From IMG/VR virus record IMGVR_UViG_3300022925_000058, positions 1 to 39,281 of that record: DNA of 39,281 bases. One strand, 5' to 3'. Shown here in pieces: positions 4,590 to 30,542 of the stretch. Origin of the DNA: a virus. Both the position numbers and the translations under genes were made by a program. The notes beneath the pieces were generated by a model, which did not search any database, was not told the origin of the DNA, and saw only the letters and a program-made list of their open reading frames with translations. Numbering within the stretch: the stretch's first letter is position 1; every line of letters begins with the position of its first letter.

Positions 4590-4877
4590 TCATTTGAAAG
4601 TATACACGATTATGCTAACGATTCCTGCGAAGATAATCCAAAACGCCCTTTCAAACATGCTAACCCCCTTTGTATTTACTATGGCTTTTTGTTCAACAAT
4701 TTCTACTCTATCTTCTAAGCGGTCCATTCTTAAAATAAATCTGTCGTTTTGTTTTAACACCGTAGTTACTCGTTCCTCTATTCGAGCAATAGCTACTATT
4801 GCTTCAGAAAGTTTATCTATTTTACTATCTAGTTTATCTAACCTATTTGATACGTCGTCATTCACTTGTAGCTCCAT
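4590..4877 (-). CDS. XhlA-like tail-anchored membrane protein (lysis cassette)
   Basis: The 95-residue protein has a heptad-rich coiled coil (NRLDKLDSKIDKLSEAI, then DRLEDRVEIVEQK) and one C-terminal membrane segment (FWIIFAGIVSIIVYTF) ending in lysine. This is the architecture of XhlA-type proteins (PF10779), which act with holins in host lysis. The gene overlaps the end of the endolysin gene by 16 bases, supporting a lysis role. It could alternatively be a spanin component or an unrelated structural anchor. Confidence 0.6.
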   Translation of the reverse strand: MELQVNDDVSNRLDKLDSKIDKLSEAIVAIARIEERVTTVLKQNDRFILRMDRLEDRVEIVEQKAIVNTKGVSMFERAFWIIFAGIVSIIVYTFK

Positions 4878-5254
4878 ATATGTGGGCGCGGACGCATGGG
4901 TTCTTCTTCGAGCGTGTCGAGATGAATAAATCTGCTATCACCATGTTGTTTTACACCTAGACCCGTTATACCGTGTTTAAGGGCTACCTGAATAAGTTTT
5001 AAGGCGTCCTTTCCTCGTATAAGTATGTCTACTGCCTTGCCCGATGAATGAGCCCCTGGCTTAGATTTTTTAGCTTCTATAGGATGGGTCTTATCTCTAT
5101 ATCCACTACTGATAATAAAAGGTACCCCTACCTCTTCTCTTATTGTATCAAGTTTACGCATGAAGTCATCATCCATTTCGCATAAACCTGTATGTTTACA
5201 CTTTAATTCATCATGGGTAAAGTATTTCCAGTTATTTTTCTTTTTTCTCCACAT
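4862..5254 (-). CDS. Peptidase M15-family endolysin
   Basis: The 130-residue protein carries the hallmarks of zinc D,D-/L,D-peptidases of family M15: SSGYRD (residues 49-54), then PGAHSSGKAVDI with H69 and D76, then RFIHLD with H111, together the three expected zinc ligands. It would cleave peptide cross-links of peptidoglycan to lyse the host. There is no signal peptide, so export would depend on the neighbouring holin. It is at the usual length for a single-domain M15 endolysin. The ATG lies inside the end of the DUF6447-like gene (23-base overlap), with AGGAAG about 12 bases upstream. Confidence 0.85.
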   Translation of the reverse strand: MWRKKKNNWKYFTHDELKCKHTGLCEMDDDFMRKLDTIREEVGVPFIISSGYRDKTHPIEAKKSKPGAHSSGKAVDILIRGKDALKLIQVALKHGITGLGVKQHGDSRFIHLDTLEEEPMRPRPHIWSYK

Positions 5255-6324: not shown

Positions 6325-8277
6325 CTACAAATTAGGTTGCATTGCTTTTAAGTTTACCAAAGTTTTTATGTTTTGGTTAAACAAACCGTTAAAAGCTGTT
6401 CTATTATCTAATAATGTATTGCTAGTATAAATGTTTTTTGACTCATACCAAAGCTTTTGATTGGGTATAGATAAAGCTCTGTAATCATTAAATCCAACAA
6501 CATACCCCATGTATGCAATAATTTTATCTTCTGATCCATACTCTCCTGTTTGTTCTTGTTTGTTTTTTATTTCGTTTTGAGCCTCTTGCATGTTTTTAGC
6601 AAGGATTTGATCTGCTATTTCATCTGAGTCTGATCTGCTGTTATTTGCGGATAAAGATGTATCAATTTGTACATCATTATTGACTGAAGATGTATTGCTA
6701 ATGTTACTAGCCATAGTTGTTGTGTCTGAAAAAGACTCATTTGATTCTGTAGAAACAGAAACGCTCATTTGTAAAACCTCATTGTTTTGTGCTGTTGAAG
6801 ATGCAAATTGATCTGAAATACTAGGTGAGTTGCTCATAGAAACACCGCCACCGCTTGATCCTGATGAATTAGATGAATTGTTTAAATTGTTGTCATCGTT
6901 TTGACTTGTACCACTTACACTGTTGTTGGCTGTTTTAATTGTAGATGAAACAACTCGCAATGCGACATCTCTAGTTAATGAACTCTTTGTATCTTTGTTT
7001 TCAACAAAAATTTCTTCAATGGTTTCTTCCTGCCTTTCTCTTTCTTCTCTAACTTCTGCAACTTGTTCCTCTATCTCTTCTTCGATAAATCTAGGCTCTA
7101 GTTCTTCTTCTATCACTTCTTCAAAAATGGGTTCAGGCTCTTCTTCTATTATTCTTTCAGGTTCAGGCAAGTTTTCTGCTAAAAAGGTTTCTTGAAAAAT
7201 AAATTCTTCAATCATAATTTCTTCACGAGGCAAAAATGTTTCTTCTTGTGCAATTTCAAATATTTCAATTGTTTCTATTGGCTCGGAAAAAGGTTGGGGT
7301 TCATTAAAAACTTGTTGTTGTGGCTCAAAAAATATTGGTTCTTCGTATGATTGCATAGGCTCTTCTATGTAGCCAAACTGTTGTTCTTCTTCTATAGGTG
7401 GGTTGCTGTAATTTTGTTCTTCTTGATATCCATAATCAATTTCTTCTTCTTGAAAATAAGCTACGGATTCTTCTTGTTTATAGCCTTTGCATGATGGAGA
7501 GTATTGAGGGTCAATGTCACATTGTTCATCATCATAAGCTTGCCAATATCCTGCACAACTAACATCATTTAGTGGGTTGCTACAATCAATAACCTCGCCA
7601 ACAAATAAAGAGCCACCGTTTTCTAAATTTTGATTTTTGTCTGAACTGTTCCAGTCATAGTTGTAACATTCTTTAGAATTGTATACTCCTGTATTGCACT
7701 CATCATGAAAATAATAAGTTTCAAACTCATCTTCTTTGCCTTGTATACCTATAAATACATCATGGTCTTGAATGTCTAGCTCGCCATAACGAGCCTCGTA
7801 GGTATCGTTAGGGTATAGCCAAAGCTCAAAAGTATTTTTTGAATCTCTGTAATATTCCCACATTTCATACCAACCAAATATAACCTTGTCATCAAAACTT
7901 TTGGCTAACATGGAAGAATTTTCTCCCATAATAAGGTCAGTCCAAAAAGGATATATTGTATAGTTGGTGTTGGGAGATGGGCTAGGATTATACTGTGTGC
8001 AGTTTTTCTCCCATGTGCTTGCTGTAGATAATGAGCCTAATATTAAACAACCATTGCTAGCCATGTAACCTTGGTTAAAAGTTTCGCCAAAAAAATTAAA
8101 GTCAAAGCCAAAGTTAAAAACCTGAGATGTGCCGTCATCACTTGCTGACATGTTGGTAGCATTTTCTAAGCGTAAATCCCAAATGGGTTTGTCTTGAATG
8201 AGGGTGACTGTTGTTTGGCTTAAAGCTGTAACACTAAACAGACACGCTATTGCGTAGCATAAAATTCTTTTTTGCAT
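6325..8277 (-). CDS. Secreted NIDO-like protein with a Glu-rich belt
   Basis: A 650-residue protein. Residues 1-20 form a signal peptide (KRILCYAIACLFSVTALS), probably cleaved by signal peptidase I. Residues about 50-185 resemble a nidogen-type (NIDO) or related extracellular domain: FNFGFDFNFFGETF, YMASNGCLILG, YPFWTDL, VFIGIQG. A Cys-containing stretch follows (C194, C204, C232, C241, C253, C263). Residues about 268-428 are extraordinarily rich in Glu with Pro and Ile, and about 445-570 in Ser and Asn. The C-terminal 80 residues look folded. The start overlaps the preceding secreted-protein gene by 31 bases and has no clear ribosome binding site. It may be a virion surface or periplasmic protein; the function is unknown. 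Confidence 0.6.
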   Translation of the reverse strand: MQKRILCYAIACLFSVTALSQTTVTLIQDKPIWDLRLENATNMSASDDGTSQVFNFGFDFNFFGETFNQGYMASNGCLILGSLSTASTWEKNCTQYNPSPSPNTNYTIYPFWTDLIMGENSSMLAKSFDDKVIFGWYEMWEYYRDSKNTFELWLYPNDTYEARYGELDIQDHDVFIGIQGKEDEFETYYFHDECNTGVYNSKECYNYDWNSSDKNQNLENGGSLFVGEVIDCSNPLNDVSCAGYWQAYDDEQCDIDPQYSPSCKGYKQEESVAYFQEEEIDYGYQEEQNYSNPPIEEEQQFGYIEEPMQSYEEPIFFEPQQQVFNEPQPFSEPIETIEIFEIAQEETFLPREEIMIEEFIFQETFLAENLPEPERIIEEEPEPIFEEVIEEELEPRFIEEEIEEQVAEVREERERQEETIEEIFVENKDTKSSLTRDVALRVVSSTIKTANNSVSGTSQNDDNNLNNSSNSSGSSGGGVSMSNSPSISDQFASSTAQNNEVLQMSVSVSTESNESFSDTTTMASNISNTSSVNNDVQIDTSLSANNSRSDSDEIADQILAKNMQEAQNEIKNKQEQTGEYGSEDKIIAYMGYVVGFNDYRALSIPNQKLWYESKNIYTSNTLLDNRTAFNGLFNQNIKTLVNLKAMQPNL

Positions 8278-9266
8278 TGTCTGTTGGTTTTAGTTTTTTT
8301 TGTATAGGTTTTTTTTACTAACCCAACCACATCTTTATTTATTTTTTCTCTTTTAGGATTTGCATCTTGTGTGCATTGTCTAATAAATTCTTTTTCTTTT
8401 TCGTCTGCATCGGGTCTTTTTGATGGGTTTTTTAACCAAGCTTGAGTTGCTTCGTCACCAATTTTGCCTTTATATGGACAAGGTGTGCCTGCCATTTCCA
8501 TAGCCTTAAATACTCTTTTGTCTTGGCAGAGTATGCTCACACTAGCCACTTTCATGCCAGTATCGTAAAGATACTTAGACAGTTTTAATCTTTCACAGTT
8601 TTCATCTGTGACTGTGCTTCCAGTTGAAAGACCAAACACCTGTCCTTGAAAAGCACCCGATCTACCTACAGTACATAAGTCTTGAGAATAACTCATAATA
8701 CTTGGTGCAATAGCAGAAGCAGGGGGTGCCTTACTTTTTACATTTTGATTAATGGTTTGAGTTGAGTTGGACTCATTAATATTTCTGTTGGTGTTATCAG
8801 AGGTTGAGTTATTAATATTTTTATTAGTGTTGTCCGTAACGACATTTGACTCAGACTCAGAAACATTCACATTCGTATTATTATTTGTGTTTACATTGTT
8901 GCTTGTTGAGCTAGAGGTATTTGTAACATTTTGATTTACGGTTGAATTTACATTTGATGTCGAAGTCGAAGTATTGACATTGGTGTTGTTGTTTGTGTTT
9001 ACATTGTTTGACGAAGAGCTACTGGTGCTATTGTTCGTGTTGATGTTTGTATTGTTGTTGGTGTTGGTGTTTGTGTTTGTGTTGTTATTGGTGTTAGTGT
9101 TTATGTTTGTGTTGTTGTTGGTGTTAGTGTTTGTGGTAACTGTGGTATTGATGGTTGTTAACCCATTATCTTCACAGTATTGAGTGCCTGCTGTGCAATC
9201 ACCAACTGGGTCAGCTTGGATCAATCCTATAAATAAAAATGGTATACAATATAAAAAACGTGCCAT
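8247..9266 (-). CDS. Secreted Asn/Thr-repeat protein with conserved C-terminal domain
   Basis: The 339-residue protein starts with a signal peptide (residues 1-18, FLYCIPFLFIGLIQA before DP). Residues about 38-175 are an Asn/Thr/Ser repeat tract (units such as NTNTNNNTN and NNVNTNNNTNVN), and residues about 190-339 form a Cys-containing, lysine-rich domain (LCTVGRSGAFQGQVFG, KLSKYLYDTGMKVASVSILCQDKRVF, GTPCPYKG). I recall this C-terminal pattern from other marine phage contigs, always without a function. It is paired with the NIDO-like gene, so the two may act together outside the cytoplasm. The ATG has only a weak GGAC upstream. Confidence 0.6.
   Translation of the reverse strand: MARFLYCIPFLFIGLIQADPVGDCTAGTQYCEDNGLTTINTTVTTNTNTNNNTNINTNTNNNTNTNTNTNNNTNINTNNSTSSSSSNNVNTNNNTNVNTSTSTSNVNSTVNQNVTNTSSSTSNNVNTNNNTNVNVSESESNVVTDNTNKNINNSTSDNTNRNINESNSTQTINQNVKSKAPPASAIAPSIMSYSQDLCTVGRSGAFQGQVFGLSTGSTVTDENCERLKLSKYLYDTGMKVASVSILCQDKRVFKAMEMAGTPCPYKGKIGDEATQAWLKNPSKRPDADEKEKEFIRQCTQDANPKREKINKDVVGLVKKTYTKKTKTNRQCKKEFYATQ
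8860..9140 (-). repeat. Low-complexity Asn/Thr minisatellite within a secreted-protein gene
   Basis: The plus strand shows imperfect GTGTT/TTGTTG units, densest from about 9030 to 9138, coding for alternating Asn and Thr. A second-order repeat (NNVNTNNNTNVN) occurs twice, around 8870-8900 and 8976-9010. The periodicity is the kind that expands and contracts by slippage, so length variation between related phages is likely. Confidence 0.85.
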
Positions 9267-19752: not shown

Positions 19753-22700
19753 TTATAACCCAATACTATAACCAGGGAGAACATCTTTAACGTCTAAATC
19801 CCCTTCTATAAAATCATAACCTCTTTCTAAAGTAGGCCCTAGCGGTCCTACCCAGAAAGGGTCTCCATAGCGTTTGCTTTCCATAAATAATGGCATAGCC
19901 AAAGCATAAGGCCCAAATATTCCGCTTCTATCTAGTATTTCAAAAGAGTATTCACCCCAATCCATACCTACAGACCTTCTATAATTTTTACCAGAAGACT
20001 CAAAGAAACCAGAATCTGCGTTTGGACCAGTAAATGGAAGCAACCAGTCTAGCCCAATTTTAAACCTTTCTCTTATATCTAATCCTAACATAGTTAAAGG
20101 TAAAAGGGTTGCTGCACCTAAGAGAAGAGGAATTGAAGCGGAAGTAAATCCTTCTTCATTAAACCTATTTTTAGACTCTCTCATTAAACCACCAACAATA
20201 TTTTTACCATAGGCATAGAAAAAAGACTTAAGCTGCCACACTAAAGCAAACCTCGGATCTGAAGCCCACACGGGTCTCTCTGCTGCATTTGGTCTTACAA
20301 TAGATTCATCCACAAATCTAGCTAGTGCAAGCCTAATTTGTTCGTTTTCAGGTCCGGTTACGTTTTGCCCCCTTTGATTCCACCCTTCGACTTGATCCCA
20401 AGTAAGGTTTAATTCTTTTAAATAACGTATTGATCTTTTATCACCTAACTTAGCTCTTTTACCGTGATCTATTAAGAAAGCTTTTCCCATGCCCCCCGCA
20501 AAAATACGTGTAAATTTAGTAAACCACTCTAAGCCGATTGTTTTAAAAAATAAATCAGAGGCGGCCTTGGCTTTTGGTACCATAAAATCTAACTCTGCTG
20601 CGTTTATATACATAGTATTAACAGCATCAGTACTAATTACACCAATATCTTTTGCAAATTGAGCAAGTTCTTGTCGTTTTTTTGCAGAAAGTTCTCCACC
20701 AAAAGTATCGCCAACTAGTCCATCTAAATAAGGTAGAAGAACATCTGTTACTCTTGGAATAGTTTTTAGTTCTTTAGAGCGTAAGATTGGACCGGCAAAA
20801 TCGGGCAAAGAGGCTAAAACAGCAAAAGGTAAAAGTGTTATAACATTAAAAGTTAATAACCAGCTATTTGCCTCTTTAAAGGTTTGGCTCATTTCGGGGT
20901 TGACTTTACCCAACATAGCTTGAACAGCAGCTTTAGCCTGTTCTCTTTGTTCTTTGGGTAGAGTATTTATGAGACGTTGTGCTTTAGCTGCGCCCCCTCG
21001 TTTTTTATATTCTGTTTTTTTAACAACGTTAGTAATATATTTCTGTAAAGAAATTAATGGGTCTTCGGCTATGCTATCCCCATTTTCATCTTTTGCCTCT
21101 CGTAAGGCTTTGTTAGGAATATTAGCAAAAAGTTCCGCTCTGTGTTTTACAAGTCCAACCCCTATTTCTTGTAGCTCAATATCCGCCGCGTCTTGCCCAG
21201 AATCAACTACTTTTTGATCTCCCATATTTTTTATAATCCCACTAACCACTAATTGTGCATATTCGGGGGTGACTGTAAAATCTTCAAAAACAGGATTTCC
21301 ATCTTTATCTGCTTCATACATAACCTTCCCATTTTTTACTCTGGGGCTACCATCTTTGTTTCGTAGTGCTTTAGGTCTTTTAAATACTTTTCCTTGGTTA
21401 TATTCAACTAAAAGGCCTGCTAGCTTACTTTGTAGCGTAGAACTAGAAACCAACATATCACTTATGACCCGAGGAAAATAATTATTTAGTTTATTTACTT
21501 TTAAAGTAGATAAATCCCTTCGTTCATAAAACTCAGACAACCACTCTCTAACTTGTTTAGCTTTTGGACTAAGATCTTCTGTATTAACTTGATTATCTTC
21601 AGCCTCTAAGAGAATATCCATTGCCTCTTGAGTTATACCACTAGTATCTGTTATATCTAAAATTGTAAACAATTCACTTAGATAACCATTTATAGCTGAA
21701 ATTTTTGCTGTTAAAAAACCTGTTCTTTCTCCAGACTGAGATCTAGAGTAAAACATTTTAGCCAATTCAGCTCCCACCCCATTCGGAAACATTTCTTTAC
21801 CGGTCTTTTTATCTTTTTGGCGAATGTTTTTACCTAAGGAGCGTACAAAATTATCGGTATCATATAACCAATACTTAAGTGACCTAGGGATTTTATTTTC
21901 AGATGATAAAATATTTTCTGCCATCTTTTTTAACTGTTGCATTTGTGCCGGAGTTACAAAACCTTTTAAAGCGTTTGGAATCATTTCATCTGCCATGTTT
22001 CGTATAAAAATACGGTCTTCTGCAGTAATTGGGTTTCTAATTGGATCTTTTGCCCCATCTTTATAACTTTGTAATAAAGCATCTACATAAGATTCAAAAG
22101 AGGGATTGATCTCAAAACGTTTTTGCATTAATTGTCCGAATTTTTTAAAAGCCCGCTCGACTTTATTAGCTATTCTTTTAAAGAAAGATTCGGTTTGGTT
22201 TGTAGCTTTTTTAGATCTATTTAAAAGATAAGCTCCAATTTGATCTGCGTACCATTCTTCAAAACCATTCTGACCATCATAACTTTTTGAGCCTACTGTT
22301 TGTTTTGCTGTTTCAAATTCCTTTAAGAGATTATTAAGAAGAGTTTTATTACTTAGAGAATTAATTACTTCCTGTTTAAAAACAGCGTGTCCTACTTCAT
22401 GAAGTAACGCTAACATAGCTTCACTTTGTTGTTGAGCGGTTGCGTTTTCTGGGAGGTTTATAATAATAACATCTGTTTCAGCATTACTTAGAATCCTACC
22501 TAATAATGGTTTTTTAACTCCATTACTATCTTCTACAGCTCCCAAAACAATTTGTTGTTGGTTTTGTACAAATTTATTTTCATAAGACTCGTCTGCAAGA
22601 ATTACTTGTAAATTTCTATTAAACTTAAATTCATTTTTAATAATATTTATTAATTCATCAACCGCGCGGCCCTCTTTAAGTCTGTCTTTTAAACCTGAAG

Positions 22701-25700
22701 ATATATTTACAGTAGGTTTTTTTGCTCCTTGTTTTTTAGGGAGCTCTAAAAAGCTAAACCTATCTCTAAGCTCAAACTCCATTTTTGCTCTAATATCAGC
22801 TACATCTGTTGTGTCTGTTGGCGATTCCTCAAAAACAAAAGCGGGTTGTCTACCAAGCACTCGTCCCGTCTCTGGGTCTCTTGCAACCCCCCTATTTGAT
22901 ACTTGTTCAACACGAGGGGATTCAAACGTGCCTGTAACTAGTCGCTGCCCCTCTGCAGCTCCAGGCCCCGTTGGTACAAAATCAGTTTCCGATTCGGCCC
23001 CAACAATGTCTCTAGAACGACTTCTAATATCTTTTAGCTGTTCTTGGGTGCTCTTTTTTTGTTCAATTAAATTATCACGCAAAGCCTTTTTTTGATCAAA
23101 ATTTAATTGAGCAATTGCAGGGTCATTTGGTGTTTCGGATAACGTGTCTTCTATACGAGAATCAAAGTCAGCAATTTTTTGTTCTAATGAAGTAACATTA
23201 GCATCAAACTCCCCTCTCGAAGTAATTAATTCAAATAAATCAATATGCCCATCGGGATTTTCGGGGGTTACTTGACTAGGTAAACTTAAAACAGGGGCTT
23301 CATAAAAAAATTGTTGGTTAACGCTATCAATAGTAAAAGGAACGCCCCTATAATAAAGTTGATACCCGTTTAATAATAGCTCCGTTATTGCATTCGTAAA
23401 CCCTTGAAGTGCTCTTTCTTGGGGTGTTTGTGCTGTTTGAGACATTTCGCCTTGCATATTTAAGTTACGAGTACCAAACTTAGTTATTTCAGGCATATAT
23501 ATCTGTTGCTGTCCTTCTTGCCCTTTTTCTATGTTTGTGATTGTCCAAAAAGTTGGGGTTTTTTTATCTACTCTAACTCGTTTACTTTCAATTCTTTTTG
23601 CTGTTTTAACCCACCTAGCCGTTTCAATTTCCATGTTTTGTGAGCCCATTGGCACACGAAGTTTTTTAATATTAAAAAACCCTTTTGGTTCACCGGTCTC
23701 ATCTAAAACAGGGTCTATTCTAAAAATAAAATTTGAGTTGTTTTCAGATTCATCAATAAACCTTTTTAATAAAGAATCTGAATAATTACCTTCACTAATG
23801 TTTCTATTAAACTCTTCTAAAAATTCTGGGGCAATTAAATCTCTAGCTGTATCTATTGTATTTTGATCCTGAGCCCTCCCAGCTTTCCACCCCTCTTTAA
23901 ATAAATCTGGTTTAACTGTTGTTACAGGAACTACGGGAGCAAGCGGGTCTGTGGGCGTAGGTTGTTGGCTGGCTTTTTTAGCATCTTCTTTTGCTTTTTG
24001 TAACTCCGGACCAATTTTTGCGGGTCGAATGGGGGTAGCATCAGACCCTTCTCCCTCTTCAACTACTGTTGCCTCATCAAAAAACTGAAAATTAGCTGGG
24101 GCCTCTTCATCTGGGGTTAGCGCCCCCTCCTTGTTTGGTTGTAAAGCAATAAAATCTTGTCGAAGTGTTTGTTGCTCTTTTGGACTTAATTTATCAATAC
24201 CCCCAAGTCTTCTTGCTTTTTCAACTAGTCCTAAATATCTATCACGAATTGAATCATCAGTATCAGTAATAGTTTCTTCATCAATATTAATATCCCTAGT
24301 CTCAACAGTTTTATCTAACTTGGCATTGCGCTCTTCTAGATGCTGCTTAACATTCTTTTTAATTATTTTTCCTTTAGGAAAAAGTTCTCTAGCTTTAGCT
24401 TCTACGGCTGAGGCATCTTTTACATTAGTAGATTGATACCAAATCGGGTTTCCATTTTCATCTAAAACTTCCACCACCATATCGTCTTCTGGTTTTCTGC
24501 TATGCTCGTATCCTAAAATATCCACTAAAGTATTATCTAAAGCTATACTATTTAAAGGATTTTCAACTGTAGTTTTTATAAACTGGTCTAGCTTATTTTG
24601 GTCTGTGGTAAATAACGCGCCCTGTCTAAAATTTTCGGGTGTTACTTCATTTTGTAAGAGTTCATTTTTTATTCTTTGTGCAAGTTCGGGGTTACGTTCT
24701 ATTAAAACATTCATTTGATTAAAACTATTTGCATCTAAATAAACAGAATCCTTTGAGTTATTCTCATCAAAGACCGCATTAAATTGTGCTTCTAACCAAT
24801 CTACGGGTTCTTTATATACATCCCCTATTTCAACATCTCCATAACGTTCAATGTTAAATTGGTTGTATTGGTCATTAGCATATTTTTCATCTACATAAGA
24901 ACGTGCTTTTTCAACTACTCCTGTTACAGTGCCCCCAAGAGTACCTAATCCCGCACCACCAAAAAACCCAGCAAAAGCCGCATGGGCTCTATCTAATTTA
25001 GCATGAGCGCTTGTGTAGTTTGGATCAATTGCAAATTTCTGTTGGATGTTTATTTCTTCTTGAGCAAGTTCGGTTAAGCCTTCAATACCCGCCGTTCTTC
25101 CTGCTCCAGCGGCCATAGCTCCAATAATATTTTTATGTATAGGGCCATCCCCTTTTTTTAATTTATTTAAAAAATATTTAGCAACAAGAGCCTCTCCGCC
25201 TACCCCAATTACCGCCCCTGGTATTCCTATACCCGCAGCAGTAAACGCAGAAACCGGGTCTGTCATATCTTGTTCAGCGAAAGTGCCAAAAGAAACCCCT
25301 GCTAGTTGAGGGTATTCAGAAGCAAAAGCTCCTCCAAGAGCACCACGTGTGCTTGCCTTTTTTAAATAATTATTTCTTAGTTGTTGGTAGATAGCATCTT
25401 CTAAAAGTTCGTCGTCAAGATCTACTGCTTCATTTTTAAGTCGTTTTACAGCTAAATCTTTAAACTCTTTTTCCGCAACTTTTTTTGCTGCTAGGTTAGT
25501 AAGAGCTGCACTTCCCCCCATTCTTAAAGCACTGCCCCCCACAACAGCACCAATTCCTGCTCCCGTAAAAGCGGATACAATACTAGCTAAAGCTGTTGGA
25601 GTAAATTGTCCTGTAGCAAGAACAGCTTGATTTAAAAAACCCGAAAAAGTTGGTTCTTCTAAAAACTGTTCAAATTCTTCAAACCCAGCTGTAGCACTAG

Positions 25701-25995
25701 CAGCTTGACTTTCATAACGAGCAGCATCTAGTAATGCATCATTTAACCCTTTTTGGTCTCCTAAAATAGAGTTCCCTAGGGCCCGAAAATAACTTGTTGT
25801 AGAACCAAGACCCGCTACTCCGGCTTGACGGCCAGATTCAAAAGCGGCTAAAGGATCAAAGCCTGTATCCCTACCCCCGGGCAAAGTGCGATCTCTATCG
25901 GCTAGTGCCCCAACAGGCGCGTTTCTTGAGTTATCAGAATCGGCGAGTGCTCCAACACCCAAAAAGGCTTGAATAGGGTCTTTTTCATTTGCCAT
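19753..25995 (-). CDS. Giant DNA-ejection protein with zincin metalloprotease motif
   Basis: A 2080-residue protein, the largest in the window. The N-terminus (about 100-360) has Gly/Ala-rich hydrophobic helices (FTGAGIGAVVGGSALRMGG, AFTAAGIGIPGAVIGVGG). The middle carries HEVGH at residues 1199-1203 with E1246/E1247 in FEEWYADQ 43 residues later, the layout of a zinc metallopeptidase. The C-terminal 350 residues hold hydrophobic segments (LLTFNVITLLPFAVLASL, SIPLLLGAATLLPLTMLGL). It follows a 745-residue and two smaller proteins, matching the order of T7 gp14, gp15 and gp16, so it is probably an internal virion protein ejected into the host. T7 gp16 (1318 residues) has a transglycosylase; none is seen here. 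The ribosome binding site is weak. Confidence 0.75.
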   Translation of the reverse strand: MANEKDPIQAFLGVGALADSDNSRNAPVGALADRDRTLPGGRDTGFDPLAAFESGRQAGVAGLGSTTSYFRALGNSILGDQKGLNDALLDAARYESQAASATAGFEEFEQFLEEPTFSGFLNQAVLATGQFTPTALASIVSAFTGAGIGAVVGGSALRMGGSAALTNLAAKKVAEKEFKDLAVKRLKNEAVDLDDELLEDAIYQQLRNNYLKKASTRGALGGAFASEYPQLAGVSFGTFAEQDMTDPVSAFTAAGIGIPGAVIGVGGEALVAKYFLNKLKKGDGPIHKNIIGAMAAGAGRTAGIEGLTELAQEEINIQQKFAIDPNYTSAHAKLDRAHAAFAGFFGGAGLGTLGGTVTGVVEKARSYVDEKYANDQYNQFNIERYGDVEIGDVYKEPVDWLEAQFNAVFDENNSKDSVYLDANSFNQMNVLIERNPELAQRIKNELLQNEVTPENFRQGALFTTDQNKLDQFIKTTVENPLNSIALDNTLVDILGYEHSRKPEDDMVVEVLDENGNPIWYQSTNVKDASAVEAKARELFPKGKIIKKNVKQHLEERNAKLDKTVETRDINIDEETITDTDDSIRDRYLGLVEKARRLGGIDKLSPKEQQTLRQDFIALQPNKEGALTPDEEAPANFQFFDEATVVEEGEGSDATPIRPAKIGPELQKAKEDAKKASQQPTPTDPLAPVVPVTTVKPDLFKEGWKAGRAQDQNTIDTARDLIAPEFLEEFNRNISEGNYSDSLLKRFIDESENNSNFIFRIDPVLDETGEPKGFFNIKKLRVPMGSQNMEIETARWVKTAKRIESKRVRVDKKTPTFWTITNIEKGQEGQQQIYMPEITKFGTRNLNMQGEMSQTAQTPQERALQGFTNAITELLLNGYQLYYRGVPFTIDSVNQQFFYEAPVLSLPSQVTPENPDGHIDLFELITSRGEFDANVTSLEQKIADFDSRIEDTLSETPNDPAIAQLNFDQKKALRDNLIEQKKSTQEQLKDIRSRSRDIVGAESETDFVPTGPGAAEGQRLVTGTFESPRVEQVSNRGVARDPETGRVLGRQPAFVFEESPTDTTDVADIRAKMEFELRDRFSFLELPKKQGAKKPTVNISSGLKDRLKEGRAVDELINIIKNEFKFNRNLQVILADESYENKFVQNQQQIVLGAVEDSNGVKKPLLGRILSNAETDVIIINLPENATAQQQSEAMLALLHEVGHAVFKQEVINSLSNKTLLNNLLKEFETAKQTVGSKSYDGQNGFEEWYADQIGAYLLNRSKKATNQTESFFKRIANKVERAFKKFGQLMQKRFEINPSFESYVDALLQSYKDGAKDPIRNPITAEDRIFIRNMADEMIPNALKGFVTPAQMQQLKKMAENILSSENKIPRSLKYWLYDTDNFVRSLGKNIRQKDKKTGKEMFPNGVGAELAKMFYSRSQSGERTGFLTAKISAINGYLSELFTILDITDTSGITQEAMDILLEAEDNQVNTEDLSPKAKQVREWLSEFYERRDLSTLKVNKLNNYFPRVISDMLVSSSTLQSKLAGLLVEYNQGKVFKRPKALRNKDGSPRVKNGKVMYEADKDGNPVFEDFTVTPEYAQLVVSGIIKNMGDQKVVDSGQDAADIELQEIGVGLVKHRAELFANIPNKALREAKDENGDSIAEDPLISLQKYITNVVKKTEYKKRGGAAKAQRLINTLPKEQREQAKAAVQAMLGKVNPEMSQTFKEANSWLLTFNVITLLPFAVLASLPDFAGPILRSKELKTIPRVTDVLLPYLDGLVGDTFGGELSAKKRQELAQFAKDIGVISTDAVNTMYINAAELDFMVPKAKAASDLFFKTIGLEWFTKFTRIFAGGMGKAFLIDHGKRAKLGDKRSIRYLKELNLTWDQVEGWNQRGQNVTGPENEQIRLALARFVDESIVRPNAAERPVWASDPRFALVWQLKSFFYAYGKNIVGGLMRESKNRFNEEGFTSASIPLLLGAATLLPLTMLGLDIRERFKIGLDWLLPFTGPNADSGFFESSGKNYRRSVGMDWGEYSFEILDRSGIFGPYALAMPLFMESKRYGDPFWVGPLGPTLERGYDFIEGDLDVKDVLPGYSIGL

Positions 25996-26000
25996 AACAT

Positions 26001-28238
26001 TTAAGGTTGTTCATTTGGGTTTGTTAAAGGAGGAATAACTAGTCTTAAAATTCGCATTTGTTTTGGGCCCATCTTTCTTTCAAGGCGCCCATAATCTATA
26101 CCCTCTTCTGACTCAAAGGTCCTGCCCCCTACTCTATTTACTACAACTAATTCAACAGGTTTCCCTTCTGAATCTGTCCTCCAAGCAAGGCGATCTGCAT
26201 AATTTGCAAACCCGCCGGGGTCATCTGCGGCAAGAATATCTCCCCAAAAGTCTTTATCAAATTGTCTTATAGGAATACCATAGAAAAAATTTGGTTCCGA
26301 ATCTAGTACACCACCTGTATAAACCATGCCCGAGATTAAACTCCTTACTCTTTGGAAAGTAGATTCGCCGCCTAATTTTCTTAAAAGACCTAAGTCTGCG
26401 CCTTTTTCTCGCATTTCATCAGATAAAGGTATTTCGGCTAAAGCCCCAAGTATATCTGCTTCGGCTTTAGCATATTGTTGTTGAAAATTCTCTGCCCCGA
26501 AAGCATCTATAGCGGCATCTATTGAAGTATTAGCGGTTTCTAATTTACCTTCAAATCTATCTATTGAAGCCTTGTTTTGTGTTGAAAGCCAATCTCTATA
26601 GGTCTGTTCTAATTGACGGTTTTGTTGGGTACGCATGACTAAGCTTTCTGGTCCAGCTTTTGGGTCTCCAGTTTTTATATTATTAAATAATTCAATTGCT
26701 TGCGCCCTTATATTAGACTGAGTGCCTCCCGGGCCTGCGATTGCATTAGCAATAATTAAACTGTGAACAAACGGGTCTTTAATTTTTCCTTCTTGAACCG
26801 CTTGATTAAATGATTGACTATCCGTAATACCCTGTTCCTGTAAAAGATTTCTAGATTTAGTAATAACATCTTCAGTTAATAAAGAAGACAACGTACCACT
26901 ATCTAATAGCTCTAAAGCCTGTTCCTTTGTAGTAATACCTGTTAAATCAGGAGTTTCAGGAAAATCTGTTTCAACCATAGGCGCTGTAACATCTCGTACA
27001 TCGCCTACCTCGGTATAATCTTCTAAATAACGTAGATCAAAACCAGCGTCGCTAATTTGTTGTCTAGCGGCAGGGAGATACTCTTCTGCTAATTTTTTTA
27101 TAGCTTCTGCATCATTTGTAACTGTTTTCCATTCTTTTGAATTTCTTGTGAAAGACTCATTACCTTCTTTACTTTTCCAAAAATTGTATAAAACAGTTCC
27201 CGTAGGATATTTAATATTGTTTCCACTAACGGAACCATCAAGTATACCGGAAATTTGTGCTGTAATATTAGCAACACCGCCACCACCTTTTAATAAAGGT
27301 AATTTAGAGTCTCTTTTTCCTGCTTCCTTATTAATATCTTTAAAAACTTGTTGTTTTTCTTCTTTAAATTCAATGCCCCGTTGTCCTACTCTTGGATCGG
27401 GCGGTGGGGTACTTCCAACGTTTTGTTGGTTATATTGTTGTTTTAAATTTTCATCTATAGTGGTTTCCCACAAAGAAAGAACTTGCCCAAGAGAATCTGT
27501 TTGTGCGCCCGTGCCCGCTAAATCTGGATTAGTTTCTACTCGATCTAACTCATTTGTTAACTCATCCATAAGAGTATCAAAAGTAACTCCTGCTTTACCA
27601 GTGCCTGTAGGAGATAAACTTTCTTGCTCTTGAGTTAATATAGCGCCCGCTCTATAAGCTTCTGGATTACGCAACCTATTTAATTTATTAGCTCTTGCCC
27701 CTATCCATGACGCAACTTGTGACCCACTTAAAATAACTGCTTCGTCGTCGCTTGGATCAGAAGACCGGTTTCTTGTTAAAAAACTAAACACGCCATCTTT
27801 TCTTTTTATAGGAATGGTATAAGCCACATTATTTTTATCATTTAACCAAGCTTGTTTTTCTTCTTCCGAAGCATCTTGTAACGATGTAGGAAGTTTGTTT
27901 TTTACAGGAACTAAACTAGATATCTGCCCAACTTCTATCTTTCCTTTGTCCTCATATGCCCCAAGGAAAGACTGTACTCCCGCTAATAAAGACTGCCTTT
28001 CAGTCTCAGGGATTTTTTGTAGCTTTTGGTACCAATCTGGGGCGACCATATAACTGTTGGTATCTGAATTAAATTGGACGAGCCCAGACCCCTCAAATTC
28101 GTTTAATGCTCTGCTTGCATTTTCTGAGTCTAACGCAAGTTGGTTCATCTCCATTGTTTGTTGGGTTTGTCGATTTGCTAAACCCTGCCTATTAAATTGA
28201 GAAAAACTTTGTACTGCTGAAGTAAATGGATCTGCCAT
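26001..28238 (-). CDS. Internal virion protein (ejection complex, T7 gp15-like position)
   Basis: The 745-residue protein is largely helical and Gln/Asn-rich: an N-terminal MADPFTSAVQSFSQFNRQGLANRQTQQ region, then mixed helices, and a C-terminal folded domain (RDWLSTQNKASIDRFEGKL, KAEADILGALAEIPLSDEM). It has no signal peptide, membrane segment or catalytic motif I recognise. Its length is close to T7 gp15 (747 residues) and its gene lies just before the giant protein, so I infer that it forms part of the periplasmic conduit. GGGAT precedes the ATG. Similarity is positional, not sequence-based. Confidence 0.6.
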   Translation of the reverse strand: MADPFTSAVQSFSQFNRQGLANRQTQQTMEMNQLALDSENASRALNEFEGSGLVQFNSDTNSYMVAPDWYQKLQKIPETERQSLLAGVQSFLGAYEDKGKIEVGQISSLVPVKNKLPTSLQDASEEEKQAWLNDKNNVAYTIPIKRKDGVFSFLTRNRSSDPSDDEAVILSGSQVASWIGARANKLNRLRNPEAYRAGAILTQEQESLSPTGTGKAGVTFDTLMDELTNELDRVETNPDLAGTGAQTDSLGQVLSLWETTIDENLKQQYNQQNVGSTPPPDPRVGQRGIEFKEEKQQVFKDINKEAGKRDSKLPLLKGGGGVANITAQISGILDGSVSGNNIKYPTGTVLYNFWKSKEGNESFTRNSKEWKTVTNDAEAIKKLAEEYLPAARQQISDAGFDLRYLEDYTEVGDVRDVTAPMVETDFPETPDLTGITTKEQALELLDSGTLSSLLTEDVITKSRNLLQEQGITDSQSFNQAVQEGKIKDPFVHSLIIANAIAGPGGTQSNIRAQAIELFNNIKTGDPKAGPESLVMRTQQNRQLEQTYRDWLSTQNKASIDRFEGKLETANTSIDAAIDAFGAENFQQQYAKAEADILGALAEIPLSDEMREKGADLGLLRKLGGESTFQRVRSLISGMVYTGGVLDSEPNFFYGIPIRQFDKDFWGDILAADDPGGFANYADRLAWRTDSEGKPVELVVVNRVGGRTFESEEGIDYGRLERKMGPKQMRILRLVIPPLTNPNEQP

Positions 28239-28241
28239 AAT

Positions 28242-28814
28242 TTATATCCCAAATGCCATTAAAGCTAGTGAACCGAGTCCCGCACCCATTGACATCATTT
28301 GTGAGGAGTGTTGAGCTTTGGCGTTTTTGTAAGCTGCTTGTCTATTAGCAGCCATAGCTGAAGCTTCGCCAAGCCCAGATAAAGAGCTTCGGTTTACGCC
28401 CTGGCCAATATTTATTAAATCTGCTAACGTGCGCTGGTTAATTTCCCTTTGTTGTATAAGAGCATTATTTAGCCCCCCAGCAAGGTTTAATTGCGTCCCT
28501 CTTTGTAAAGCGCGTTGTTGTTCTTGTTGCTGTGCAGCACTTAAACCCGCTCCACCATATCTCTCAATATTTCGTTGTTGCATTTCTTTAGCAATTTGAC
28601 CCTGTCTTAAAGAATCTTCTCTAGCTCTATCGGTTAAAGATGTGTCATCTTTTGCTGCAATCAAACGTTCTTCAAAAGGACGAAAATCTTTTAAATAATT
28701 CTCAAAATCGTCTCTAGTAATACCGGCATAAACTTTTTCTGGGTCTGCTACCTGAGGTAAACTGCTTATAGAAGAAATAGTTTTTTGCAGGGGTAAATTA
28801 TCATATAGAGCCAT
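28242..28814 (-). CDS. Small Gln/Ala-rich internal virion protein
   Basis: The 190-residue protein is rich in Gln, Ala and Arg (AAQQQEQQRALQRGTQLNLAGG), with a middle DFENYLKDFRPFEERLIAAKDD helix and a hydrophobic C-terminus (SSQMMSMGAGLGSLALMAFGI). Small helical proteins with a membrane-active end, located before the larger ejection proteins, are typical of podovirus ejection complexes (T7 gp14 role: outer-membrane pore). GGAG lies ten bases before the ATG. It is probably paired with the gene upstream, which is similar in composition. Function is inferred from context. Confidence 0.55.
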   Translation of the reverse strand: MALYDNLPLQKTISSISSLPQVADPEKVYAGITRDDFENYLKDFRPFEERLIAAKDDTSLTDRAREDSLRQGQIAKEMQQRNIERYGGAGLSAAQQQEQQRALQRGTQLNLAGGLNNALIQQREINQRTLADLINIGQGVNRSSLSGLGEASAMAANRQAAYKNAKAQHSSQMMSMGAGLGSLALMAFGI

Positions 28815-28817
28815 AAC

Positions 28818-29441
28818 TTATATCTCCGGAACATTCGATGTTGGGTTCATACCCAACCCGAAATAGTCTTGTATACCACTGTTCTTCAGCCGGTCTTTCA
28901 TACTGCCACTCCCAAAGAAACCCTGACCATTAGATATATTTTTTGCGCCCTGTAATCCGAAAGTAGTTCCTAACTGAACACCTGCAGCTAAACGCGCGTT
29001 TCTAATAGTTTGTTTTGCTTTGGCTTCTTGTAATTGTTTTGTAGATTGAATCCTAGCAGCTTGCGCTAAACCGGATTGAGCCTCAGCAGCTTGACCTCTT
29101 GCGGTACCTAAGACCCCAATTTGTCTTTGTCTTTGAGCACCTAAAGCTTGTGCACTACCCTGTAATTGTTGTGCAGAAGCAGCGGAAGCTAAATCAGCGG
29201 CTTGATCAACAGAACGAGCTGCAGCTAAGCTAGGTCGACTGCTTAAAGCCTGCATAGTATCAGCTTGTGCTGTACCACGCGCTAGTCCTCCTAAATCTTC
29301 TTTCTCAGAAAGGTCCCGCATCTCTCGAAGCAAGGGTCCATACTTTTGATTAAAGTAATCTTTCTCTGCTTTGCTTACAGAAGCAAGTGCTTTCTCTTGT
29401 TCAGAAGCTTGAAAATTTTGTTTTTTTGGTTTTGAACTCAT
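28818..29441 (-). CDS. Ala/Gln-rich internal virion protein
   Basis: The 207-residue protein opens with a basic stretch (SSKPKKQNFQASEQEKALASV), has FNQKYGPLLREMRDLSEKEDL, and continues with a long Ala/Gln helix (DLASAASAQQLQGSAQALGAQRQ). It ends with RNARLAAGVQLGTTFGLQGA, a possible membrane-active segment. The start overlaps the GNAT gene stop by four bases (ATGA). It is likely one of two small components of the ejection complex; I recognise no precise family. Confidence 0.55.
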   Translation of the reverse strand: MSSKPKKQNFQASEQEKALASVSKAEKDYFNQKYGPLLREMRDLSEKEDLGGLARGTAQADTMQALSSRPSLAAARSVDQAADLASAASAQQLQGSAQALGAQRQRQIGVLGTARGQAAEAQSGLAQAARIQSTKQLQEAKAKQTIRNARLAAGVQLGTTFGLQGAKNISNGQGFFGSGSMKDRLKNSGIQDYFGLGMNPTSNVPEI

Positions 29442-29881
29442 AATTCTTTTTTATAAACATAACTTGTTAATTCAAATCCGTGCTTCCGTGCAACCCTGGC
29501 CCATCCTGGTCTACTTGTGTGAAACTCTAATGTCTTCACATTTTTTTCTAGGGCTAGCTTATCTAAAAAAGTAAACCCTACTTCCCTATAATTATACTCT
29601 GGTTTTTGATAACTTGCCCAGATAAATAGCGTAGGTTCGCCACCTGGGTCTGCGATTAATGAGCAGATAACAAAGCCAACATATTTGTCAGCTTCATAAA
29701 ACATATATAACGTAGCATTTTTATTACGTAATGCTAGATATATATCTGCTGGTATCCAATCAGAGTAACTTTTATTTCTTATGACATGTAGATCAGATTC
29801 AATTCTTTCATAAGCATACCGAATCTCATCTACAGGTATTTCTTCGACGGATATTCCATTAATAGTCGATCTCTGAACCAT
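29438..29881 (-). CDS. GNAT-fold acetyltransferase-like virion protein
   Basis: Using the ATG at 29881, the protein has 147 residues. It shows a GNAT-like order: an N-terminal helix (RYAYERIESDLHVI), a strand pair YMFYEADKYVGFVICSLI, a motif-A-like strand TLFIWASYQKPEYNY followed by a helix GFTFLDKLALEK, and a final LEFHTSRPGWARVARKHGFEL. The acetyl-CoA pyrophosphate loop (Q/R-x-x-G-x-G/A) is not clearly present, so activity is doubtful. T7 gp13, an internal virion protein, is also reported to be GNAT-like, and this gene occupies the equivalent place before the ejection proteins. An upstream start at 29920 would add 13 residues; I prefer 29881, with AAAGG about twelve bases upstream. Confidence 0.6.
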   Translation of the reverse strand: MVQRSTINGISVEEIPVDEIRYAYERIESDLHVIRNKSYSDWIPADIYLALRNKNATLYMFYEADKYVGFVICSLIADPGGEPTLFIWASYQKPEYNYREVGFTFLDKLALEKNVKTLEFHTSRPGWARVARKHGFELTSYVYKKEL

Positions 29882-30542
29882 ATCGCTTATACCTTTTACG
29901 CGGTGACAACCCTGTACCACGGTATTTAACTAATCTACGTACACCTAAATCACCGCTTCTTGCTCTTTGTTCTGCTTGTGTTACTTCTTGGTTAAACAAA
30001 CCTAAATAATCTGCAGCTGCTTGTGAATCAGACCAATCTCTTCTTGGGATTCTAAGCAATCTATATAGAGCACCATAAATAATTCCGTCTCTATAATCAT
30101 TTGAAAAATCAGTGCTAATATTGTTTGAGGTTCTAGTTGGTTTTAAAGCAACGCTTATTTGTAAACCATTTGTAACTGATGAATTAGGGACTGGTACAAC
30201 CCAAAAAGTATCCGGGTTTTTTTGTAAGTAAACTTGTGGTAAAGCGGTTTTGTTTCTCCAGTCGGGATAGTTTAGTTCTAAACTTCTAGGACTAATTGGG
30301 TCTAAATCATCTCCATCATATGTCATCCAAAGTATTTGATGAACGTCTGTACCCGCAGGTTGATCAAACTCATACTCATAAACACCACTTATAGTTGTAA
30401 TTGGATCTAAATCAAAAACATATGCTTTTGATCTTTCACAAAGTTCAATGGTTGCTGATCTTAAATTAGATTCAATTAAAGTATCCGGACAGTTTGGAAC
30501 ATAAGGTAAAACTTCTTTAACTAAGGAACTAAAATTTGCCAT
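29859..30542 (-). CDS. Head-tail adaptor / tail tubular protein A-like
   Basis: The 227-residue protein begins MANFSSLVKEVLPYVPNCPDTLIESNLRSATIE-style, split here as NFSSLVKEVLPYVPNCPD and LRSATIELCERSKAYVFDL. It continues with VYEYEFDQPAGTDVHQILWM and a C-terminal helix DYRDGIIYGALYRLL. This pattern is shared by adaptor proteins that join the portal to the tail in short-tailed phages (T7 gp11 role). AGGAG lies seven bases before the ATG. It directly follows the DUF6682-like adaptor and both share the adaptor fold style. The C-terminus is basic (RKRYKRYGSEI). Confidence 0.65.
   Translation of the reverse strand: MANFSSLVKEVLPYVPNCPDTLIESNLRSATIELCERSKAYVFDLDPITTISGVYEYEFDQPAGTDVHQILWMTYDGDDLDPISPRSLELNYPDWRNKTALPQVYLQKNPDTFWVVPVPNSSVTNGLQISVALKPTRTSNNISTDFSNDYRDGIIYGALYRLLRIPRRDWSDSQAAADYLGLFNQEVTQAEQRARSGDLGVRRLVKYRGTGLSPRKRYKRYGSEIDY

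Follow-up and report, generated by a model that had tools for sequence, protein, structure and literature searches.

The 2080-residue protein analyzed here raises the question of what a predicted metallopeptidase site is for in a giant viral protein encoded at the place where T7 has gp16. The window, i.e., the whole stretch of DNA studied, is a virus record of 39,281 bases. The features are listed in Table 1; the plus strand in the 19753-25995 register contains many stops and is closed.

Table 1. Coordinates of the gene, its neighbors and the regions of its product in the window
Feature	Residues	Nucleotides	Strand	Basis or remarks
Probable gp16-type ejection-protein gene with predicted zincin domain	1-2080	19753..25995	(-)	2080 aa, ATG start; open frame; relatives along the full length
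Most conserved C-terminal stretch	~1713-1960	20116..20859	(-)	conservation; two hydrophobic segments; PHROG virion structural protein
Candidate gp16-C-like core	~1426-1697	20905..21720	(-)	three best VIA rows are ejection core proteins
Predicted zincin metallopeptidase domain	~1095-1320	22036..22713	(-)	AlphaFold2 model, Pfam and fold matches, conservation
FEEWYADQ motif	1245-1252	22240..22263	(-)	predicted third ligand E1247 (nt 22255-22257), D1251
HEVGH motif	1199-1203	22387..22401	(-)	two predicted zinc ligands and general base E1200
Hypervariable middle (cargo) segment	~571-1094	22714..24285	(-)	no recognized domain in the window protein
Conserved N-terminal module	~60-570	24286..25818	(-)	common to ~50-57 of 58 relatives over most of its length
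Candidate medium (gp15-position) ejection protein		26001..28238	(-)	745 aa; gene order and size only
Small internal virion protein candidate		28242..28814	(-)	190 aa; PHROG 8003 virion structural protein, E 3e-6
Small internal virion protein candidate		28818..29441	(-)	207 aa; gene order only

Identity of the probable ejection protein

The genes for a terminase, a portal protein, a scaffold-like protein, the major head protein, two connector-like proteins, the 207- and 190-residue proteins and the 745-residue protein lie upstream of the 2080-residue gene and run in the same direction, and tail-fibre genes with S74 chaperones lie downstream of it. The gene therefore follows the small and medium internal virion proteins and precedes the tail fibres, which is an ejection-type position. 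The order of the small, medium and large internal proteins is shared with T7, where they have 196, 747 and 1318 residues, respectively (PMC8954989). The 745-residue protein matched no Pfam family and gave only a weak PHROG match. Between the connector and ejection genes there is a GNAT-like acetyltransferase ORF (29438-29920, minus strand; Pfam E 0.005, below the cut-off), and Microcystis phage Mae-Yong1326-1 has an N-acetyltransferase at a comparable position.

The C-terminal half was modeled from residues 1319-2080 with 58 aligned sequences (pLDDT 81.5). The best VIA row was the T7 core protein (7eyb chain I, Z 7.8 over 215 residues, with residues 1426-1697, or 108-379 of the model, aligned to 557-858 of the chain), followed by the core protein of phage E1004 (Z 6.2) and the PhiM1 ejectosome (Z 5.2); the first unrelated row stood at 4.1, and all these values are below 8. 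That gp16-type core proteins occupy the top three places in the structural comparison supports the ejection-protein reading, and the modeled C-terminal half (~1320-2060) appears to be a gp16-type core, an assignment with good but not final support. The PDB sequence search with this half gave nothing significant and no link to gp16, and the C-terminus matched PHROG families annotated as virion structural protein. LPD38 was rejected as the identity of the C-terminus, its Pfam model being matched in 0 of the 58 members. Conservation in the family is highest in residues 1713-1960 (RPNAAERPxWASDPR...WQLKSFFYAYGK), which lie outside the gp16 fold match.

Gene order and fold thus bear out the placement at the gp16 position made in the first-pass annotation, and the 2080-residue protein is very probably a virion ejection protein, its packaging being suggested by synteny and fold. 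It resembles T7 gp16 (PDB 7eyb) in its late-gene position and its C-terminal fold (Z 7.8), but it is longer (2080 versus 1318 residues), carries an additional cargo segment and a zincin, and shows no detectable sequence similarity. Unlike T7 gp16, it has no N-terminal lytic transglycosylase recognized by Pfam or PHROG.

Conservation of the predicted active site

The expected number of chance HExxH motifs in a protein of this composition (2080 residues, of which 10 are His and 163 are Glu) is 0.004, and this value, together with the universal conservation of the motif, rules out a chance occurrence. Scanning viral contigs with residues 1097-1318 yielded 135 domain relatives, 80 of which were kept, and HExGH followed by EEWYAD was present in all 78 relatives spanning the site. 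Since FEEWYADQ was among the search patterns and could have biased the selection, relatives were also gathered with C-terminal residues 1651-2059 only, which gave 51 sequences including that of the window (26 clusters at less than 80% identity). H1199, E1200, G1202, H1203, E1247, D1251, R1293, and F1300 were unchanged in all 26 clusters, so that selection bias was removed as a source of the conservation. Both motifs were likewise present in all 58 diverse full-length relatives, where the spacing between HExxH and the ligand ranges from 42 to 79 (median 45). The two motifs and the length originally reported for the protein are therefore confirmed by their coordinates and their invariance, and the loss of the site residues in close relatives, which had been named as the finding that would speak against the site, did not occur.

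E1246 or E1247 had been put forward as the third ligand. The former position is occupied by E, D, or S in the relatives, which rules it out, whereas E1247 never changes and was therefore retained. Thermolysin- and M48-type enzymes show the gluzincin-type pattern, in which HExxH is followed farther along by E-x-x-[AS]-D, and D1251 is, judging from the sequence, likely to be the partner that orients a ligand histidine.

Predicted fold of the zincin domain

The AlphaFold2 model covers residues 1060-1335 and was built from 46 aligned sequences. In its core, predicted with a pLDDT of ~90, a helix, a strand and a second helix are followed by two strands, the HExxH helix, a further helix and finally the helix with EEWYAD. 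The three-stranded sheet, the N-terminal helix, the HExxH helix and the Glu-bearing helix of this model are zincin elements, the zincin core having been described as three strands, the HExxH helix and a Glu helix (Iyer et al., 2017; PMC5512222). The zincin-like site proposed from the motif alone thus acquires a confidently predicted layout, with the motif helices in the expected order. In the VIA-align comparison with the PDB, in which all Z values were below 8, the upper rows were mostly zincins: the best single match was the YbeY-type 1oz9 (Z 6.8), the other leaders were an M61 aminopeptidase and Vibrio collagenases, and LTA4 hydrolase, a Bacteroides metallopeptidase, anthrax lethal factor and PPEP-1 occupied lower rows. 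Foldseek gave no PDB match below E 0.001 with the model of this domain or with that of the C-terminal half, and the PDB sequence search with the domain gave nothing significant.

In Pfam, the window domain matched DUF4344, a "putative metallopeptidase" (E 1.6e-6, 28.5 bits, under the gathering cut-off of 29.6). The matches of 46 relatives were to M78 (27/46), M32 (14/46), M48 (7/46), and DUF6782 (6/46), M78 being matched only in relatives, with a best E of 8.5e-6. The HExxH gluzincin-type signature is common to the window domain and to Peptidase M78 (ImmA/IrrE), M48, and DUF4344, but the profile matches are weak or, in the case of DUF4344, below the cut-off.

Judging from the model, residues ~1095-1320 very probably adopt a zincin fold, with H1199, H1203, and E1247 as the predicted ligands and E1200 as the predicted general base. 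The best single fold match, to the YbeY-type 1oz9, might suggest instead that the domain is a metal enzyme other than a protease (an alphaKG-HExxH hydroxylase or a YbeY-like nuclease, for instance) or that its metal site is structural. HExxH is indeed also known in other enzymes (PMC12633501). The upper fold rows are nevertheless mostly peptidases, Pfam points to peptidase families, the two motifs together make up the gluzincin pattern, and the fact that the general base, E1200, never changes favors catalysis over a merely structural metal site. This alternative is therefore very unlikely, and the predicted zincin is probably catalytically active.

Modular organization of the protein

The N-terminal module, which shows hydropathy peaks near residues 133-157 and 247-272, is followed by a middle (~600-1080) common to only 4-10 of the 58 relatives, and then by the zincin and the core, which are common to 57-58 of 58 when mapped on the window protein. 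The length between HExxH and the C-terminus varies little (s.d. 64, versus 269 on the N side), and the mean identity is 0.19 in the middle, 0.28 in the zincin and 0.36 in the core. The divergence of all the parts is correlated (r 0.78-0.86; zincin versus core, r 0.86), and the fact that they diverge in step suggests that the zincin has been inherited together with the core.

The middles of relatives carry 2OG-Fe(II) oxygenase, NADAR, cpYpsA, or HHH domains. In one relative (L117; 3182-7678, plus strand) the variable segment of the giant ejection protein contains a 2OG-Fe(II) oxygenase, DUF7831, and NADAR in tandem; a cpYpsA domain occurs in the middle of L123 and a weak NADAR match in that of L115. 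Several unrelated domains in one late-gene protein, which is what defines a polyvalent protein, are thus found across the family, where the zincin is combined with SNase, 2OG oxygenase, NADAR, or cpYpsA. In the window protein itself only the zincin and the gp16-like core were recognized, and Pfam and NCBIfam detected no transglycosylase or other enzyme in it or in its 745-residue neighbor.

Relatives and their distribution

A tblastn search of 50,697 phage records detected the zincin domain only in Aeromonas phage phiA008. The homolog in this phage (UIS74281.1; L006:7039-13191, plus strand; 2050 residues, annotated as hypothetical) has HELGH...FDEWFAD and the same C-terminus, and the terminases are 50% identical. 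It differs from the window protein in having an N-terminal staphylococcal-nuclease (SNase) domain, and because the homolog starts with this domain, phiA008 may deliver a predicted nuclease with its genome. The structural protein of Kochitakasuvirus KPP25 (BAO58561.1) is related at its C-terminus and carries HESMH, an HExxH motif, at the corresponding position, but with 22% identity and no clear ExxAD ligand motif it is at most a candidate zincin by motif.

Among the more distant C-terminal relatives, to which KPP25 also belongs, Mae-Yong1326-1 carries HELGH with LPD1, gp35 of Roseobacter phage CRP-810 (L007:2689-8739, plus strand) has two separate HExxH sites, with a weak ART-PolyVal match in the neighboring gene, and Pseudomonas phages JB8 and SCYZ1 (1043 residues) have no HExxH. 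These differences, and the absence of HExxH in JB8 and SCYZ1 in particular, suggest that the zincin is a module added to this type of core rather than intrinsic to it. The genome scan with the pattern FEEWYAD yielded no bacterial or prophage relatives, and no plasmid relatives were found. The carriers appear to be a widespread, largely uncultured group of short-tailed phages (podoviruses), and the zincin was never lost in the relatives examined.

Precedents and possible roles of the predicted protease

Zincins are the commonest domain of phage polyvalent proteins, in which such metallopeptidases (MPTases) fall into 12 clades and have been proposed to act in self-processing or in attacks on host proteins (Iyer et al., 2017; PMC5512222). 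The P1 DdrB protein is cut before packaging, whereas the N4 vRNAP, which carries such a domain, is packaged uncut (PMC5512222); a recent structure of the N4 vRNAP shows the HExxH domain (PMC12633501). The window protein resembles these polyvalent MPTases in having a zincin core inside a giant multidomain late-gene phage protein, but its domain matched no Pfam polyvalent-MPTase model. It also has F1206 where the widespread phage clade of Iyer et al. has an Asp three residues after HExxH, and the signature of its family is HExGH...FEEW[YF][AS]D. Injected phage proteins with zincin domains are thus known, and what is new is this branch, with an exchangeable cargo segment beside the protease.

We propose, with a probability of roughly 0.5 for the explanation as a whole, that the protein is a gp16-type "polyvalent" ejection protein, the zincin of which makes cuts that separate its cargo. 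It would most likely be packaged and then ejected into the cell with the DNA; after entry, the zincin would cut its own polypeptide or a partner ejection protein, and the cut would separate the cargo segment from the part involved in membrane insertion and DNA translocation. The zincin has a hypervariable segment on one side and a fixed core on the other, which fits a protease releasing exchangeable cargo, and self-processing is supported by the P1 DdrB precedent and the MPTase proposal of Iyer et al. (PMC5512222). By analogy, self-processing might well be the main role of the zincin, the odds being slightly short of even: the N4 vRNAP is packaged uncut, the cargo segment of the window protein contains no recognized enzyme and the PDB fold matches have Z values below 8. 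The more specific idea that the zincin, after entry, would excise the exchangeable cargo from between the membrane module and the translocation core, which would make the protein a self-releasing effector slot in a DNA-ejection machine, is tentative and rather doubtful.

An injected effector cutting a host protein, whether a defence factor, a repressor or a regulator, could also account for the site. ImmA/IrrE-type (M78) proteases cut repressors, and M78 is the family most often matched in the relatives, but these matches are weak and other zincin families were matched too. The cargo neighboring the zincin in relatives is effector-like (2OG oxygenase, NADAR, SNase, ART), and attack on host proteins is one of the options named by Iyer et al. 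(PMC5512222). However, one would expect some lineages to have lost or exchanged a protease engaged in an arms race with the host, whereas this one is kept in 58/58 relatives and its divergence tracks that of the core; on balance, an effector role is somewhat unlikely. No published functional test of polyvalent-protein zincins was found in the literature. The universal presence of the zincin in the family, its constant distance from a T7 gp16-like core, the adjoining hypervariable segment and the relative in a named phage, phiA008, make the choice between self-processing and a host target directly testable.

The universal retention of the domain and its inheritance with the core would also be compatible with a role in assembly, in which the zincin trims itself, the scaffold or the neighboring ejection proteins before or during packaging, as proposed for P1 DdrB, itself cut before packaging (PMC5512222). 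The lack of processing of the N4 vRNAP before packaging and the existence of JB8 and SCYZ1, which indicates that assembly of this type of core does not need a zincin, make this role unlikely, more so than that of an effector.

The first-pass annotation had further suggested that the protease, standing in for the usual transglycosylase, could open the protein layer of the cell wall; the corresponding reading is an opening of the wall or of a periplasmic layer on entry, and the fact that no transglycosylase was recognized in the 2080-residue protein or its 745-residue neighbor would be in line with this idea. Zincins of this type, however, are not known to cut peptidoglycan. The T7 transglycosylase consists of the N-terminal 156 residues, whereas the zincin lies in the middle of the protein, adjoining the gp16-C-like core; this region is cytoplasmic in T7 (PMC8954989), and if the topology is the same here, the zincin would face the cytoplasm, an argument against wall opening. 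Moreover, P22-type gp16 proteins manage without a hydrolase, which is absent in the P22 and Sf6 ejection proteins (PMC8954989), so that the transglycosylase defines only the T7 subtype. Wall opening by the zincin is consequently not upheld, and is the most improbable of the roles considered.

Other genes of the window

Two further products with signal-peptide-like starts matched no Pfam family: that of 8247-9266 (minus strand; 339 residues), in which the start is followed by a long Asn/Thr-rich repeat (NTNTNNNTNINT), and that of 6325-8277 (minus strand; 650 residues), which is encoded in the tail/lysis region and has Glu/Gln/Ser-rich stretches. A 130-residue Peptidase_M15_3 protein (4862-5254, minus strand; E 1e-12) is a candidate endolysin.
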